A DNA stretch of 64,000 nt from Microbacterium paraoxydans (GTDB taxonomy: Bacteria; Actinomycetota; Actinomycetes; Actinomycetales; Microbacteriaceae): the NCBI RefSeq assembly GCF_019056515.1, contig NZ_CP064873.1:1798001-1862000 (forward strand), read 5' to 3'. Positions within the stretch are counted from its first letter, which is position 1; each line of letters begins with the position of its first letter. Position numbers and translations under genes: made by a program. The notes beneath the pieces are model-generated. The model was given only the letters and a program-made list of their open reading frames with translations, did no database searches and was not told the DNA's origin. This document shows positions 40,375 through 47,799 of the stretch, one piece after another.

Positions 40375-42486
40375 TCAGGCGTCGATGGACTCACGGGAGA
40401 GCTGGTCGGCGGAATCGATGATGAACTCCCGCCGCGGGGCGACCTCGTTGCCCATGAGCAGTTCGAAGACGCGGCCCGCCGCCTCGGCGTCCTCCATCCG
40501 GACGCGGCGGAGCAGACGACCGGAGCGGTCCATCGTCGTGTTCGCGAGCTGCTCGGCGTCCATCTCGCCGAGACCCTTGTAGCGCTGGATCGGCTCGTGC
40601 CAGCGCTTGCCGGCCTTGCGGAGCTTCGCGAGCAGCGCGTGCAGCTCCTGCTCGCTGTAGGTGTAGATCGTCTCGTTCGGCTTGGATCCCGGGTTGATGA
40701 CGATGATCCGATGCAGCGGCGGCACGGCGGCGAACACCCGTCCGTGCTCGATGAGGGGCCGCATGTAGCGGAAGAACAACGTGAGCAGGAGGGTGCGGAT
40801 GTGCGCGCCGTCGACGTCGGCGTCGCTCATGAGGATGATCTTCCCGTAGCGCGCGGCGTCGATATCGAAGGTCCTCCCGGAGCCGGCCCCGATCACCTGG
40901 ATGATCGACGCGCACTCGGCGTTGGACAGCATGTCGCCGACCGACGCCTTCTGCACGTTGAGGATCTTCCCGCGGATCGGCAGCAGCGCCTGGAACTCGC
41001 TGTTGCGCGCGTTCTTCGCCGTGCCAAGGGCCGAGTCTCCCTCGACGATGAAGAGCTCGCTGCGCTCCACGTCGTTCGTCCGACAGTCGACGAGCTTGGT
41101 CGGCAGGGTCGAGGACTCGAGCGCGTTCTTCCGGCGCTGCGTCTCCTTGTGGGCGCGTGCCGACACGCGGGCCTTCATCTCGGAGACGATCTTGTCGAGC
41201 AGCTGCGTGGCCTGGCTCTTGTCGTCGCGCTTGGTGGAGGTGAAACGCTGCTGGAGGTCCTTCCGCATCACCTGGGCCACGATCTGGCGCACGGCGGGCG
41301 TGCCGAGCACCTCCTTCGTCTGACCCTCGAACTGCGGCTCCGGCACGTTGACCGTGAGGACCGCGGTGAGGCCGGCGAGGACGTCGTCCTTCTCGAGCTT
41401 GTCGTTGCCGACCTTGAGCCGGCGGGCGTTCTGCTCGACCTGGCTGCGGAGCACCTTCAACAGCTCCTGCTCGAAGCCCTGCTGATGCGTACCGCCCTTC
41501 GGCGTGGAGATGATGTTCACGAAGGAGCGGATGCGGGTGTCGTAGCCGGTGCCCCAGCGCAGGGCGATGTCGACGGCGCAGACGCGCTCGACCTCGGTCG
41601 CCACCATGTGCCCGTCCGGCTGCAGGACCGGGACGGTCTCGGTGAACGTCCCCTCCCCCTGGATGCGCCAGGTGTCGGTCACCGGCGGGTCGACCGCGAG
41701 GTAGTCCACGAACTCGGAGATGCCGCCCTCGTAGAGGTACGACGTCTCCACGGGGCCGGTCGGCGCACCGTCCTCCCCCACCCCGGCGCTCGCGGCGCGC
41801 TCGTCGCGCACCACGATCTCGAGCCCGGGGACCAGGAAGGCCGTCTGACGCGCCCGCGTCTCGAGCTCGGCGAGCTGGAACGCGGCGTCCTTGGTGAAGA
41901 TCTGGCGGTCGGCCCAGTACCGCACCCGGGTGCCGGTGACGCCGCGCGGCGCCTTGCCGACGACGCGCAGCTCGCTGTTCTCCTCGAACGGGGTGAACGG
42001 CGCATCGGGCCGCTTCTCCCCCGAGTCCTGGAAGATGCCGGGCTCACCGCGGTGGAAGGACATCGCGTAGGTCTTGCCGCCGCGGTCGACCTCGACGTCG
42101 AGGCGCTCGGAGAGGGCGTTCACGACCGAGGCCCCGACGCCGTGCAGACCGCCCGATGCCGCATAGGAGCCACCGCCGAACTTCCCTCCGGCGTGCAGCT
42201 TCGTGTAGACGACCTCGACGCCGGTCAGACCGGTTCGCGGCTCGACGTCGACGGGGATGCCGCGACCGCGGTCATGCACCTCGACGCTGCCGTCGTCGTG
42301 GAGGATGACGTCGATGCGCGAGCCGTTGCCGGCCACCGCCTCGTCGACGGAGTTGTCGATGATCTCCCAGAGGCAGTGCATGAGCCCGGGCGAACCGTTC
42401 GAGCCGATGTACATGCCGGGGCGCTTGCGGACCGCCTCGAGTCCTTCGAGCACCTGGAGATGATGGGCGGAGTACTCGGCATTCAC
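40375..42486 (-). CDS. parE: DNA topoisomerase IV subunit B
   Basis: 703 aa. GHKL ATPase motifs: EIIDNSVDEAVAG and HDRGRGIPVDVEPRTG, with GGKFGGGSYAASGGLHGVG. The TOPRIM domain has EGDSALGTAKNARN, LPIRGKILNVQKA and MSDADVDGAHIRTLLL. The C-terminus is QRYKGLGEMDAEQL. It supplies ATP-driven strand passage for ParC. I start at GTG 42486 (NAEYSAHHLQVLEGL), where similarity to the family begins; GGAG is only 3 nt away, and the open frame upstream has no family resemblance. Confidence 0.92.
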   Translation of the reverse strand: MNAEYSAHHLQVLEGLEAVRKRPGMYIGSNGSPGLMHCLWEIIDNSVDEAVAGNGSRIDVILHDDGSVEVHDRGRGIPVDVEPRTGLTGVEVVYTKLHAGGKFGGGSYAASGGLHGVGASVVNALSERLDVEVDRGGKTYAMSFHRGEPGIFQDSGEKRPDAPFTPFEENSELRVVGKAPRGVTGTRVRYWADRQIFTKDAAFQLAELETRARQTAFLVPGLEIVVRDERAASAGVGEDGAPTGPVETSYLYEGGISEFVDYLAVDPPVTDTWRIQGEGTFTETVPVLQPDGHMVATEVERVCAVDIALRWGTGYDTRIRSFVNIISTPKGGTHQQGFEQELLKVLRSQVEQNARRLKVGNDKLEKDDVLAGLTAVLTVNVPEPQFEGQTKEVLGTPAVRQIVAQVMRKDLQQRFTSTKRDDKSQATQLLDKIVSEMKARVSARAHKETQRRKNALESSTLPTKLVDCRTNDVERSELFIVEGDSALGTAKNARNSEFQALLPIRGKILNVQKASVGDMLSNAECASIIQVIGAGSGRTFDIDAARYGKIILMSDADVDGAHIRTLLLTLFFRYMRPLIEHGRVFAAVPPLHRIIVINPGSKPNETIYTYSEQELHALLAKLRKAGKRWHEPIQRYKGLGEMDAEQLANTTMDRSGRLLRRVRMEDAEAAGRVFELLMGNEVAPRREFIIDSADQLSRESIDA

Positions 42487-42667
42487 AATCTCCGAGTCTA
42501 TTCGCGGGAGGGAGCCGCCCCTCGCAGACACTCCCCGGGTCGCCGCGTTCGCGGGTGCGCGCGTACGCGCTGAGCGAAACACGCCGTCGACCGGGCATGC
42601 CCCCAGGTGCAGCGTGGTTGTATTGAGCACGACCAACAAGGACGCCGACACCCGAGGAGGCCCCGAG

Positions 42668-42886
42668 ATGAATGCAACGACCGAACGTGAGACCTCCGCT
42701 GTCGAGTACCGCCTGACCGCGATGGACCGCTGCGACTCGTGTGGAGCGCAGGCCTACATCGCCGCCGAGGTCAACGGTTCCGAGCTGCTCTTCTGCGCCC
42801 ACCACGGCCGCAAGTACGAAGAGAAGCTGCGCAGCGTGGCCACGAGCTGGCACGACGAGACCGCTCGTCTCATCGAGACGGTCTGA
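42668..42886 (+). CDS. DUF7455-like small zinc-ribbon protein
   Basis: 72 aa. MDRCDSCGAQAYIAAEVNG followed by LLFCAHHGRKYEEKL gives a CxxC...CxxH zinc site. Such proteins lie divergent to topoisomerase or sigma-factor genes in many actinobacteria and have no known activity. GAGGAGG is about 7 nt before the ATG at 42668. The 180 bp between it and parE holds no other gene I can support. Confidence 0.82.
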   Translation: MNATTERETSAVEYRLTAMDRCDSCGAQAYIAAEVNGSELLFCAHHGRKYEEKLRSVATSWHDETARLIETV

Positions 42887-42912: not shown

Positions 42913-43950
42913 TCAGTCCACGACCCTCCGCCGAATCCGCGGACCGAGGCGGGTGAGGATCTCCTCGCCCACCGTATCGATCCGCTCGGCGAGGGTCGTT
43001 GCTGTCTCCTCCCCCTGTGCGCCGGGGCCGAAGATCGTCACCTCGTCGCCGACCGCCATCCCCGGCCAGCCTTCGACAGTCATCGTGGCGACATCGATGG
43101 TCGAGACCGCACGCGAGCCGGCGGGGGTGCCCACCGTCATCCCGGCCAGCGTGGAGGGGACGCCGTCCAGGCTCCCGACGGCGACGATCGCGCTCTCGCC
43201 CTCCACCCGCACGACCGGCGCGACGAGACGCGCCGCGGGACGAACCCCGTCGAGGTCCGGACCGTCCGCCGAGCGGATGCCGTAGCAGAACGCGCCGATC
43301 CGCGACACGGTCCCGCGCAACTCGGGTCGCCACCAGGACGCGGCCGAGGCCGTGAGGTGTACAGACCCCGGCTGCGGCCCGGTCAGGCCGACCTGCCGGA
43401 CGGCGTCGAGGAACACGGCCTGCGCCTCGTCGTCCTCGGCATCGCTCGCCTCGGCGATGTGGCTCCAGACGCCGACGAGGGCGAGTGCGCCGGAGCGCTC
43501 GGCGTCTCGGGCTTCGGCGACCGCGGCCGCCCAGTCCTCCGGGCGCACGCCGTTGCGATGCAGCCCGGTGTCGATCTTGAGGTGGATCCGTGCGCGCACG
43601 CCGAGGACCTCCGCCCGCGCGGCGATGCGCCGGAGATACTCGACCGTGCCGACGCCGAGCTCGATGTCCTGCAGGAGCGCCTCGTCGATCTCCTCATCGG
43701 TCGAGGTCGCCCAGGCGAACACCGTCACCTCTCCGCCCGCGATGCGCCGGACCTCGACGCCTCCGCGCACGTCATAGCTGCCGAACGAGGTCACCCCGGC
43801 CTCGAGGGCCGTCTCGACCGCCCAGCGGAGCCCGTGGCCGTAGGCGTCGTCCTTGAGGACCAGCATCAGCGTGGAGTCGCCGAGGCGGTCACGGACCGCC
43901 GCGATGTTCGCGCGGAAGACGGCACTGTCCAGACGCAGTTCGGGGCGCAT
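42913..43950 (-). CDS. alr: Alanine racemase, barrel subunit lacking the catalytic-tyrosine segment
   Basis: 345 aa. The PLP barrel is complete: Lys33 in LVLKDDAYGHG, Arg132 in LKIDTGLHRNG, His in WSHIAEASD, the phosphate-site SASW area, and SRIGAFCYGIRS. The C-terminal domain is shortened. Where Alr normally has AGExVSYGRTY, this protein runs VVRVEGES straight to AIVAVGSLDG, so the catalytic Tyr (Tyr265 of the Geobacillus enzyme) is missing, and VGRVSMD reads VSTIDVATM. GDEVTIFGPG and ILTRLGPRIRR remain. The upstream gene carries the missing tyrosine. GGGAGG 4-5 nt before ATG 43950 sets the start, 11 bp after the upstream stop; ATG 43965/43962 are alternatives. Confidence 0.85.
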   Translation of the reverse strand: MRPELRLDSAVFRANIAAVRDRLGDSTLMLVLKDDAYGHGLRWAVETALEAGVTSFGSYDVRGGVEVRRIAGGEVTVFAWATSTDEEIDEALLQDIELGVGTVEYLRRIAARAEVLGVRARIHLKIDTGLHRNGVRPEDWAAAVAEARDAERSGALALVGVWSHIAEASDAEDDEAQAVFLDAVRQVGLTGPQPGSVHLTASAASWWRPELRGTVSRIGAFCYGIRSADGPDLDGVRPAARLVAPVVRVEGESAIVAVGSLDGVPSTLAGMTVGTPAGSRAVSTIDVATMTVEGWPGMAVGDEVTIFGPGAQGEETATTLAERIDTVGEEILTRLGPRIRRRVVD

Positions 43951-43961
43951 CGGGCCTCCCA

Positions 43962-44666
43962 TCATGCCTCCCATCCGCGCACGGCGTGCGCTCCCGGGAC
44001 CGCGACGAGCTCGGCCGGGGTCATCCGGGTCAGCTCCGCCCAGCGCGCGATAGCGCCGGAGGCGGGTCCGGTCCCTCCGAAATAGGTCACCGCGTCGCCC
44101 ACCTCCGCGAGAGCGCCCTGGAGGTCGATGACGCAGACGTCCATCGCGACACGCCCGACGATAGGGTGCAGTGCGCCGTCGATCTCCACGTCCGCGTGGT
44201 TGCCCAGGGCCCGGACGACGCCCTGAGCGTAGCCGCCCGTCACGAGCGCGACCGTGGTGTCCGCCGCCGCCCGGAAGGTGTAGCCGTACGAGACGGCCTC
44301 TCCCGCCCGCAGGCGCTTGGTGGACATGACACGGCCAACCAGACGCATGACCGGAGGCGTCGTCGGGAGGCCCTCCGCGGATGGCAGCCCATAGAGGAGA
44401 CGGGGATCGAGGTCCGGCTCTCCAGTGGTCGTGGCGGTGATGCCTTCGAGACGGAGCGCCTCGACCTCTCCGGGAGAGTCCACGAGGACCTCCTCCGCTC
44501 CCGCCGCGGTCACCGCCTGGGCGACGGCGAGCAGACCGTGACCCCACGCATCGCGCCGGAGGTCGGCCCGGCGACCCCCCGCCCGGATCGCCGCGGACGC
44601 GCCGGCAGCGAGGGCCGAACGCGAGATCATCGCCTGCGGAAGCGCACTCGAACTCGTCTCACACAC
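43962..44666 (-). CDS. Alanine racemase C-terminal-domain protein without catalytic lysine
   Basis: 234 aa. Only about 60 residues of the Alr N-terminus remain (SRSALAAGASAAIRAGG, then DLRRDAWGHG), where the PLP lysine position of the KADAYGHG motif is Arg37. Barrel strands beyond about residue 75 are missing. The C-terminal domain is canonical: RVMSTKRLRAGEAVSYGYTF with the catalytic Tyr127, VTGGYAQGVVRALGNHADVE and PIVGRVAMD. It is therefore the complement of the downstream gene. The GTG start at 44666 has TAGGCT 7 nt upstream (leaderless); ATG 44630 is a poorer alternative. Together the two should form one heterodimer, supplying D-alanine for peptidoglycan. Confidence 0.85.
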   Translation of the reverse strand: MCETSSSALPQAMISRSALAAGASAAIRAGGRRADLRRDAWGHGLLAVAQAVTAAGAEEVLVDSPGEVEALRLEGITATTTGEPDLDPRLLYGLPSAEGLPTTPPVMRLVGRVMSTKRLRAGEAVSYGYTFRAAADTTVALVTGGYAQGVVRALGNHADVEIDGALHPIVGRVAMDVCVIDLQGALAEVGDAVTYFGGTGPASGAIARWAELTRMTPAELVAVPGAHAVRGWEA

Positions 44667-45865: not shown

Positions 45866-46558
45866 TCAGACCGCGCGGACGATGCCGAGCGGGGTGGACT
45901 CGAGGCCCTGACCGAGCGGGTTGTCACCCAGGATCTTCACCAGCCGCAGCTCCCCCGCCTTGTCCAGCGTGGAGCCGAGGATGTTGCCGCCGAGATCGTT
46001 GATGTCGACCACGGCCACCTCGGCCTGGCCGCCGATCAGCGTCTTCAGGTGCGCCGCGACCCGGTCCGGGTCCTTCGGCCCGAGCACCACAGCCTCGTTG
46101 TACGGAGGGATGGTGTGCTTCGTCGGGCCGTCGATCGCGCGCGCCTTGTCCCCCGCGATGCGGTAGAAGTCGCCCTTGCGCCCGAAGGCCTTGGTGACCG
46201 CCGAGACGGCCGCCGCGAAGAGGATGCGCGGCGTACCGCACTCGCGCAGCGCCATCTCCATCGTCTCCGGCATGCCGAGACCGATGCCGTACGGCGTGCG
46301 GGTGACGTACTTCGACAGGAACAGCGCGAGCTTGCGCGGCTTGATCTCGTCGAGGCGGTAGGACCGCCCCTGCGTGATCGCGACGATCTTCTCGGTCACG
46401 AAGAGGAGGTCGCCCGGTTGGACGGCATCCTTGGCGTACTCCGTGATGATGGCGTCGAGATCGTCGTCCGGCATCACGACACGGGTGCGCAGCGGAATCC
46501 GCGCGTAGCTCTTTCCGTCGACGCTCGCCTCGAGCGCCTTGCCCTCGTTCGCCTGCAT
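45866..46558 (-). CDS. CofE-like gamma-glutamyl ligase family protein
   Basis: 230 aa. The family is F420-0:gamma-glutamyl ligase-like: DLLFVTEKIVAITQGRSYRL, RTPYGIGLGMPETMEMALRE, KGDFYRIAGDKARAIDGPT and AEVAVVDINDLGGNILG. In F420 producers CofE adds glutamates to F420-0. No other F420 genes are seen, and this protein belongs to the stand-alone branch often near ATP-grasp genes, so another acceptor is likely. ATG 46558 overlaps the sigA stop by one base (TGATG), so it is probably co-transcribed with sigA. Confidence 0.72.
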   Translation of the reverse strand: MQANEGKALEASVDGKSYARIPLRTRVVMPDDDLDAIITEYAKDAVQPGDLLFVTEKIVAITQGRSYRLDEIKPRKLALFLSKYVTRTPYGIGLGMPETMEMALRECGTPRILFAAAVSAVTKAFGRKGDFYRIAGDKARAIDGPTKHTIPPYNEAVVLGPKDPDRVAAHLKTLIGGQAEVAVVDINDLGGNILGSTLDKAGELRLVKILGDNPLGQGLESTPLGIVRAV

Positions 46559-47799
46559 CACTCGAGGTAGTCCCGCAGCGACTGCGAGCGGCTCGGGTGG
46601 CGCAGCTTGGCCATCGTCTTGGACTCGATCTGGCGGATGCGCTCACGCGTCACCCCGAACGTGTCACCGATCTGGTCGAGCGTCTTCGGTTGACCGTCGC
46701 CCAGGCCGAAGCGCATCCGGATCACGCCGGCCTCGCGCTCCGAGAGCGAGTCGAGGAGCTGCTCGAGCTGACGCTGCAGCATCGTGAAGCCCACGGCATC
46801 GGCGGGGACCACGGCCTCGGTGTCCTCGATGAGGTCACCGAACTCGCTGTCGCCGTCTTCGCCGAGCGGCGTGTGCAGGGAGATCGGCTCGCGACCGTAC
46901 TTCTGCACCTCCACGACCTTCTCCGGAGTCATGTCGAGCTCGCGGCTCAGCTCTTCCGGAGTGGGTTCGCGACCGAGGTCCTGCAGCATCTGGCGCTGCA
47001 CGCGGGCGAGCTTGTTGATGACCTCGACCATGTGCACCGGGATGCGGATCGTGCGGGCCTGGTCGGCCATGGCGCGGGTGATGGCCTGACGGATCCACCA
47101 GGTCGCGTAGGTCGAGAACTTGAAGCCCTTGGTGTAGTCGAACTTCTCGACCGCGCGGATGAGACCGAGGTTGCCCTCCTGGATCAGATCCAGGAACTGC
47201 ATGCCGCGACCGGTGTAGCGCTTGGCGAGGGAGACGACGAGACGGAGGTTCGCGCCGAGGAGGTGGCTCTTCGCGCGCTGACCGTCACGGGCGACCCACT
47301 GCAGGTCGAGTCCGAGCTGGCTCGTCTTCTCGGCGGGAGACATCGCGGAGAGCTTCTCCTCCGCGAACAGACCCGCCTCGATGCGCATCGCGAGCTCGAC
47401 CTCTTCGGCCGCGTTCAGCAGTGCGACCTTTCCGATCTGCTTCAGGTAGTCCTTGACCGGGTCGGCGGTCGCGCCGGTGATCTGGGTCGAGTAGACCGGG
47501 ACCTCTTCGTCGTCCTTGGAGGAGATGACGATCGCACCGGTCGGCAGCGGCTCGGTGAAGGCCGGCTTCGCGTCATCCTCCTCCTCGTCGCCCGCGGCGT
47601 CTTCGGAGCCCTCGGCCGCAGCGGCGTCGTCTTCCTCGACGACGTCGTCCGACTTCTTCTTCTTCGCGGGGGCGCGCTTGGCCGCGGCACGCTTGGGCGC
47701 GGGAGCCGCTTCGGTCGCTTCGACGTCCTCGACCTCGGGATCCGCGGTGATCTGATCGGCCTTCTTCGTCCGCGTGTTCTTCGTCGTGGCAGGAGTCAC
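46558..47799 (-). CDS. sigA: Primary RNA polymerase sigma factor SigA
   Basis: 413 aa. An acidic/basic, low-complexity N-terminus (1-90, with [14 protein letters not shown]) precedes region 1.2 ([16 protein letters not shown]), region 2 ([20 protein letters not shown], then [18 protein letters not shown]), region 3 and region 4 ([16 protein letters not shown], then [20 protein letters not shown]). It is the housekeeping sigma factor (RpoD/HrdB class). A candidate promoter is GATACT preceded by TGC (minus strand, 47910-47918), an extended -10, giving a leader near 100 nt. Confidence 0.97.

Follow-up and report, generated by a model that had tools for sequence, protein, structure and literature searches.

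A pair of adjacent genes and the question that it raises

Alanine racemase (Alr) is a homodimer in which each active site takes its lysine from one subunit and its tyrosine from the other. In the 64,000-nucleotide stretch of Microbacterium paraoxydans DNA analyzed here (the window, to which coordinates refer unless stated otherwise), two adjacent Alr-like genes have divided these residues between them, raising the question of whether they are the remains of a broken enzyme or the two halves of a working one and, if the latter, what the composite enzyme might racemize.

Both genes lie on the minus strand in the order B-A, separated in the window by a spacer of 11 bases, and both reading frames are open, with 0 internal stops. 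Gene B (43962..44666, minus strand; 234 aa) begins with a GTG, although an ATG at codon 13 is a possible alternative start, and gene A (42913..43950, minus strand) codes for 345 aa. Pfam searches found the full PF01168 (Ala_racemase_N) barrel in A, with PF00842 (Ala_racemase_C) recognized only from model position 33, and a complete PF00842 in B, where PF01168 is not called. Alignment to the positions of Geobacillus Alr revealed that A, the barrel subunit, retains the pyridoxal phosphate (PLP) lysine as Lys33 (codon 43852..43854, minus strand; Lys39 in Geobacillus; translation and column alignment) and Arg136 as Arg132 (43555..43557, minus strand; translation and column table), and that its catalytic-tyrosine loop is deleted: about 20 residues with the tyrosine of the SYG motif are absent at a junction that the alignments place at approximately 43190..43206 (minus strand). 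In B, the tyrosine donor with the reduced barrel, Tyr265 is present as Tyr127 of the SYG motif (codon 44286..44288, minus strand) and the place of the PLP lysine is taken by Arg37 (codon 44556..44558, minus strand; both by translation and alignment). The initial annotation had described this locus as an alanine racemase split over two genes with complementary loss of catalytic residues, and its gene coordinates as well as its readings of Lys33, Arg132, Arg37, and Tyr127 were all confirmed, the strand being the one detail that it did not give.

The combination of Lys and Tyr in the same chain that characterizes alanine racemase is absent, A having no such Tyr and B no such Lys, and both proteins score below the 168-bit cutoff of the alanine racemase equivalog TIGR00492 (114.4 bits for A and 97.3 bits for B). 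Membership in the superfamily (PLP fold type III, barrel plus beta domain) is indicated by the Pfam matches and by the best PDB fold matches of both AlphaFold monomer models, which are alanine racemases. The model of B is confident (mean pLDDT, 87) and retains approximately the first three β/α units of the barrel; that of A (mean pLDDT, 70) is confident in the barrel and poor after residue 224, so that its C-terminal domain is of low confidence. The nearest named B proteins are from Microbacterium and are 90 to 92% identical, and the database label on the B half is "alanine racemase." Two further B proteins, P0009 from Zhihengliuella sp. ISTPL4 (88% identical) and P0122 from Streptomyces sp. 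AC495_CC817 (68%), look like mislabeled Microbacterium records.

We propose that A and B would be obligate partners in a heterodimer, each dimer having exactly one active site that works. To this site, A would supply the PLP lysine, the barrel, the PLP-phosphate site, and the residue at the specificity gate, and B would supply the second catalytic base (Tyr) along with other residues reaching across the interface; the opposite site, consisting of the barrel remnant of B and the tyrosine-less domain of A, would be dead.

Conservation of the split pair across the family

When B was used as a query against 299 genomes of the family, it retrieved matches in 296, ordinary Alr among them. Inspection of the 30 best loci, that of the window genome included, revealed that 28 are adjacent B-A pairs with the same reciprocal loss, spanning 15 genus labels; the other two are an ordinary Alr (L040) and a fusion (L034). 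The column table of these 28 pairs has the barrel residues kept in A and the C-domain residues in B; in four pairs (L019-L022), the lysine position of B is unaligned in the 30-locus alignment and was read as Asp in a wider tally. In two loci (L035 and L036), A retains the length of the loop and has Gly at the tyrosine position.

The wider tally condensed 248 loci to 86 distinct A and 90 distinct B proteins, with A matches shorter than 300 residues and B matches shorter than 190 residues dropped and the canonical-Alr loci (L091-L170) excluded. Because Lys39, Arg136, and Tyr265 were the class-defining residues of this tally, only the remaining residues count as independent evidence. Tyr43, Lys129, His166, Ser204, and Arg219 are kept in all 86 distinct A proteins, and among the 90 distinct B proteins Arg290 and Met312 are invariant, Asp313 is present in 88 (Asn in 2), and Tyr284 is present in 86 (Phe in 4). 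Most of these residues are assigned in PMC3485190 to one or the other subunit of a single site. For the entryway and PLP residues of Mycobacterium tuberculosis Alr, that paper assigns Tyr364 and Ile362 to the lysine's own subunit and Tyr271', Tyr290', Arg296', and Arg316' to the other. The columns of the pair match this assignment: at the Ile position, all 28 A proteins have Ile or Val and B is variable, and at the columns of the two arginines of the other subunit, all 28 B proteins have Arg. PMC4517790 primes the same Ile and thus disagrees with PMC3485190 on the subunit from which that residue comes.

The two genes are also coupled. Both starts could be called in 25 loci, the choice of starts being made by script, and in 20 of these the two genes overlap by 1 to 8 bases (by 4 bases in 17 of the 20); the other five loci, the window among them, have gaps of 5 to 38 bases. 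Ten comparisons within Microbacterium gave dN/dS values of 0.128 to 0.271 for A and 0.091 to 0.195 for B, which indicates purifying selection on both. This bears directly on the notion that A and B are pieces of an alr that has broken apart and is decaying, as might be suspected from both being without parts of a normal Alr: the ratio is well below 1 for both genes in 10/10 comparisons, the window genes have no internal stops, and whatever one half has lost is kept in the other, leaving this explanation with next to no probability. Outside the family, a sample of 248 genomes of the order (at least 18 of them from the family) gave no match above the range of ordinary Alr, and in a sample of 296 genomes of the phylum only 4 genomes had matches at E <= 1e-105, all from the family. 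We judge the reciprocal loss to be no local accident and no product of chance. Judging by the papers listed in searches of an open-licence library, neither an alanine racemase that is split or heterodimeric nor the racemase for type-B peptidoglycan has been described there.

Natural fusions and a second split design

A natural A-B fusion is found in L034 (629 aa), where a lysine-bearing barrel without the SYG motif is followed by a half with Ser in place of the lysine and with SYG. The same A-B fusion design is present in 6/6 genomes of genus label g21 and 5/5 of g74 that were examined, with Tyr at the gate in 11/11; the gate column is empty in the alignment for 10 of these 11 fused A halves, and the residue was read by motif. 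The fused B halves have Ser or Thr in the lysine place in 10/11, the position not being found in L377. In g78 (5/5 genomes), A and B are separate genes in the order A-then-B, with a Tyr gate in A and Thr for the lysine in B, and these genomes also carry a B-A pair with a Glu gate. Acidic-gate B and A run on in one frame in G283, where the codons near the junction include no start, and in G234, which has possible starts there.

Of the 16 Tyr-gate halves, 10 were included in a barrel tree, where they group with canonical Alr (support, 100/99) and apart from the class in the window. The simplest reading is that the reciprocal loss would have happened at least twice. The Tyr-gate halves form two groups in this tree, and these may share a single origin.

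D-alanine is required for peptidoglycan. We ran a canonical Alr profile (E <= 1e-8) on 34 genomes. In g21 it recovered no Alr other than the fused protein (6/6), and in g78 only split pairs were found, one with a Tyr gate and one with a Glu gate (5/5; genomes listed as 99 to 100% complete), so that this profile search recovered no ordinary alr in any of the 11 g21 and g78 genomes (11/11). Because D-alanine is needed and these genomes show only composite Alr, the composite design very probably works, provided that no D-amino-acid transaminase supplies the D-alanine. In three g74 genomes (G073, G188, and G274), the fused and split genes are joined by a further Alr-like gene that is divergent (E about 1e-48).

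The genome harboring the window (3.59 Mb) carries two intact alr genes besides the pair. The second of them (C1:325576-326559; L002) is divergent, with His at the gate, His in the place of Lys129, and GYG for SYG, and a similar gene is present in Agromyces sp. Root81 (L389). Given that all of these proteins are homologous and that two intact Alr are encoded in the same genome, A and B might be thought to pair not with each other but each with an intact Alr, resulting in regulation or in mixed dimers. We regard this as very improbable, as A and B are adjacent, mostly overlapping, and found fused to each other, and the canonical-profile search of g21 and g78 found no intact Alr with which they could partner. 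A canonical alr elsewhere with a silent pair had been named at the outset as the finding that would speak against a composite racemase; half of this holds, in that two intact alr genes exist, but the low dN/dS of both genes in the 10 Microbacterium comparisons indicates that the pair is not decaying. The proposal of the initial annotation that complementary halves would build one composite site gains support from the 15 genus labels, the gene overlaps, the purifying selection, the fusions, and the genomes with composite forms only. The residue partition, its conservation, the gene coupling, the purifying selection, and the natural fusions are evident from sequence; a composite heterodimer is well supported by them, with the physical association and catalysis being predicted.

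The gate residue and the likely substrate

The residue at the specificity gate of A, Glu329 (42964..42966, minus strand), aligns with Tyr361 of Streptomyces lavendulae Alr (1vfh), which is equivalent to Tyr354 of Geobacillus Alr in Table 2 of PMC3485190. The pair thus lacks the alanine-restricting gate tyrosine, and the gate is acidic in all 86 distinct A proteins (Glu in 69 and Asp in 17). PMC3485190 describes this residue as a gate for substrate size that controls specificity, with Thr in Lyr, Ala in Bar, and Asn in VanT, and reports that the gate Thr of docked Lyr touches the side-chain amine of D-Lys. An acid at the gate would suit a positively charged side chain. The replacement of Tyr354 by Glu or Asp suggests, with lesser confidence than the composite site, that the substrate may be a diamino acid, namely ornithine in Microbacterium and diaminobutyrate elsewhere.

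We considered the choice of Asp or Glu at the gate as a marker of diaminobutyrate versus ornithine and rejected it, as there is no clean sorting; Lacisediminihabitans combines Glu with diaminobutyrate. The Arg-Asn pair used by Lyr and Bar is not diagnostic because the canonical Alr of the window genome has it too.

The initial annotation called the pair alanine racemase, which finds no support here: the genome has two intact alr genes, and the gate residue and the distribution described below point to a diamino acid. A milder version would make the pair a heterodimeric isozyme of the two intact alr, its gate change being neutral or regulatory. The Tyr-gate split and fused relatives seem to be the alanine racemases of their genomes, so that alanine is probably an acceptable substrate for a composite enzyme; nevertheless, the class in the window never has Tyr at the gate (0/86), coexists with intact alr in its own genome and with a Tyr-gate pair in g78, and is absent from Microbacterium groups that keep a canonical alr. 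Moreover, charged residues at the gate lowered alanine racemization in another Alr, according to PMC4517790, and we consider the isozyme reading unlikely. Instead, the pair probably racemizes a diamino acid, the D form of which would enter the bridge of type-B peptidoglycan.

Distribution and peptidoglycan chemistry

A is present at E <= 1e-50 in 297 of 366 Microbacterium genomes, and a search of 68 of the other 69 with the B profile revealed five more that show the pair or pieces of it. L-Lys is found in the M. lacticum clade. According to PMC10757982, M. arborescens and M. imperiale have L-Lys, and D-Orn is found in M. sufflavum, in the M. liquefaciens clade, and in the M. testaceum clade with the exception of M. 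enclense; M. enclense and M. gubbeenense have L-Lys within clades given as D-Orn. Pair-positive species with reports of Orn or D-Orn are M. testaceum and M. oxydans, as members of clades given as D-Orn, M. sufflavum, and M. schleiferi (Orn; Table 2 of PMC10978784). The pair is also present in M. luticocti, M. hydrocarbonoxydans, M. esteraromaticum, M. commune, M. allomyrinae, M. terrae, M. terricola, M. chocolatum, and M. fluvii, and searches with the A and B profiles did not find it in M. arborescens, M. lacticum, M. laevaniformans, M. dextranolyticum, or M. flavum. Individual pair-negative genomes could be named by identities of 99 to 100%. Eleven of the approximately 64 negatives were placed in canonical-Alr trees, where they lie around M. 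arborescens and M. thalli and around or near M. lacticum, M. flavum, M. laevaniformans, and M. dextranolyticum; this two-group picture is looser in a second tree, where L073, L075, and L076 branch off separately. The Alr on a contig titled Stenotrophomonas maltophilia P13 (L091; JACEFY010000081.1) is of the Microbacterium type and lies close to the M. lacticum group, and the label or assembly of this contig looks wrong.

Diaminobutyrate (Dab) occurs in Leifsonia, Clavibacter, Herbiconiux, and Agromyces. It is also reported for Subtercola vilae (type B2gamma; PMC5945732), which has an intact acidic-gate gene (see below), and for Lacisediminihabitans (PMC7033078), which carries the pair. Three named Agromyces genomes have neither the pair nor an acidic-gate gene among their matches; they have an ordinary Tyr-gate Alr, and two of them carry one more intact gene, in which the gate residue is His or Ala. 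As the genus has Dab and these three genomes show no acidic-gate gene, either D-diamino acids must also arise in some other way or the connection drawn between the pair and wall chemistry is wrong.

A rule that absence of the pair means absence of D-ornithine fails with M. radiodurans (G549), in which the A and B profile searches found no pair and one canonical Alr only and for which PMC10757982 reports D-ornithine. This is the one clear contradiction to the diamino acid link, and with it a diamino acid substrate would be a good and testable prediction. Taking these lines together, we consider it probable that A and B are the obligate partners of a heterodimer, the one composite site of which probably racemizes a diamino acid for type-B peptidoglycan.

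Intermediates and the origin of the pair

Several genes in the family have the appearance of intermediates. Full-length dead partners of A are found in Marisediminicola senii, where B is matched over 358 residues and has Ser for Lys39, Ala for Lys129, Ser for Arg136, and Gly for His166, and also in genus label g58 (348 to 358 residues) and G679 (322 residues). An intact gene that retains Lys as well as Tyr and has Asp at the gate adjoins ordinary alr in Clavibacter, three Herbiconiux, Planctomonas, and two Subtercola genomes. In trees built on subsets, these intact acidic-gate genes fall among the A proteins and apart from canonical Alr by their barrels (98/96) and nearer to a canonical Alr by their C domains; they may be surviving ancestors or reassembled genes. 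In Herbiconiux moechotypicola (L175), the canonical alr beside the acidic-gate gene has Trp and not Tyr at the gate.

That the pair would derive from alr-like copies by reciprocal loss, as first proposed, finds support in these comparisons. The more specific proposal of a tandem duplication is plausible, with the dead full-length partners adjoining A, and is tempered by the intact acidic-gate genes, which may represent ancestors or later reassemblies.

Genomic neighborhood

Two neighbors of the pair are constant: a DUF7455 gene (42668..42886, plus strand) and a gene for a topoisomerase subunit B of the GyrB/ParE type (40375..42651, minus strand), each near the pair in 18/18 split-pair regions, which places the split pairs at one and the same locus; a sigma-factor homologue is present in 16/18. 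On the other side, an ATP-grasp protein (PF14397; 44751-45767, plus strand) is transcribed away from gene B, and a F420_ligase/CofE-like protein (45866-46561, minus strand), the score of which is well under the CofE equivalog cutoff, lies between the pair and the sigma factor. We considered these two as required functional partners and rejected this because they are near the pair in only 4/18 and 6/18 regions, respectively. Both of the other Microbacterium regions examined are among the four with the ATP-grasp gene.

Significance and comparison with known systems

The pair can be viewed as a natural experiment in the passage from a homodimer to an obligate heterodimer, as intact acidic-gate genes, full-length partners with dead barrels, truncated partners, and fusions all occur in one family. 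More broadly, we lean slightly toward the view that this family has repeatedly made a single-site composite of the Alr fold, once as an acidic-gate heterodimer for D-diamino acids and separately as a Tyr-gate pair or fused pseudodimer that would be the sole alanine racemase of its host. The pair would also be a candidate source of the D-ornithine and D-diaminobutyrate in type-B peptidoglycan, which is a gap in cell wall biology. There is also a warning for annotation, in that the B half is labeled "alanine racemase," yet the g21 and g78 genomes searched show no ordinary alr gene.

The closest known system is Alr itself, the fold-type III homodimer (Geobacillus, 1SFT and 1BD0; S. lavendulae, 1VFH; M. 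tuberculosis, 1XFC), which the models of both A and B resemble in fold. The two-base catalytic residues of Alr are divided in the pair between A and B, and a cross-subunit site is predicted from the residues, which partition as expected for one. However, Alr has two sites in a homodimer, whereas the pair would have one site between two different chains, with Tyr354 replaced by Glu or Asp and a large part of the barrel lost in B. In the trypanosomatid prozyme-type systems and in ornithine decarboxylase/antizyme inhibitor, paralogues are likewise paired, one copy being without catalytic residues; in contrast, both copies of our pair have lost complementary residues, and the losses seem recurrent in separate lineages. 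In the VanT serine racemase, the catalytic domain belongs to a membrane protein and, unlike in the pair, has Lys and Tyr in one chain. Changes at the gate accompany changes in specificity in VanT (Asn) and in Lyr and Bar, which share the fold and admit larger substrates upon replacement of the gate tyrosine, as described in PMC3485190; however, Lyr and Bar are homodimers with the small residues Thr and Ala at the gate, whereas the gate of the pair is acidic. Finally, PddB, the PLP-independent diaminobutyrate racemase described in PMC8225329, also makes D-diaminobutyrate in an actinobacterium but is a monomeric, DapF-like enzyme with a cysteine pair and no PLP, and it represents another possible route to this D-amino acid.
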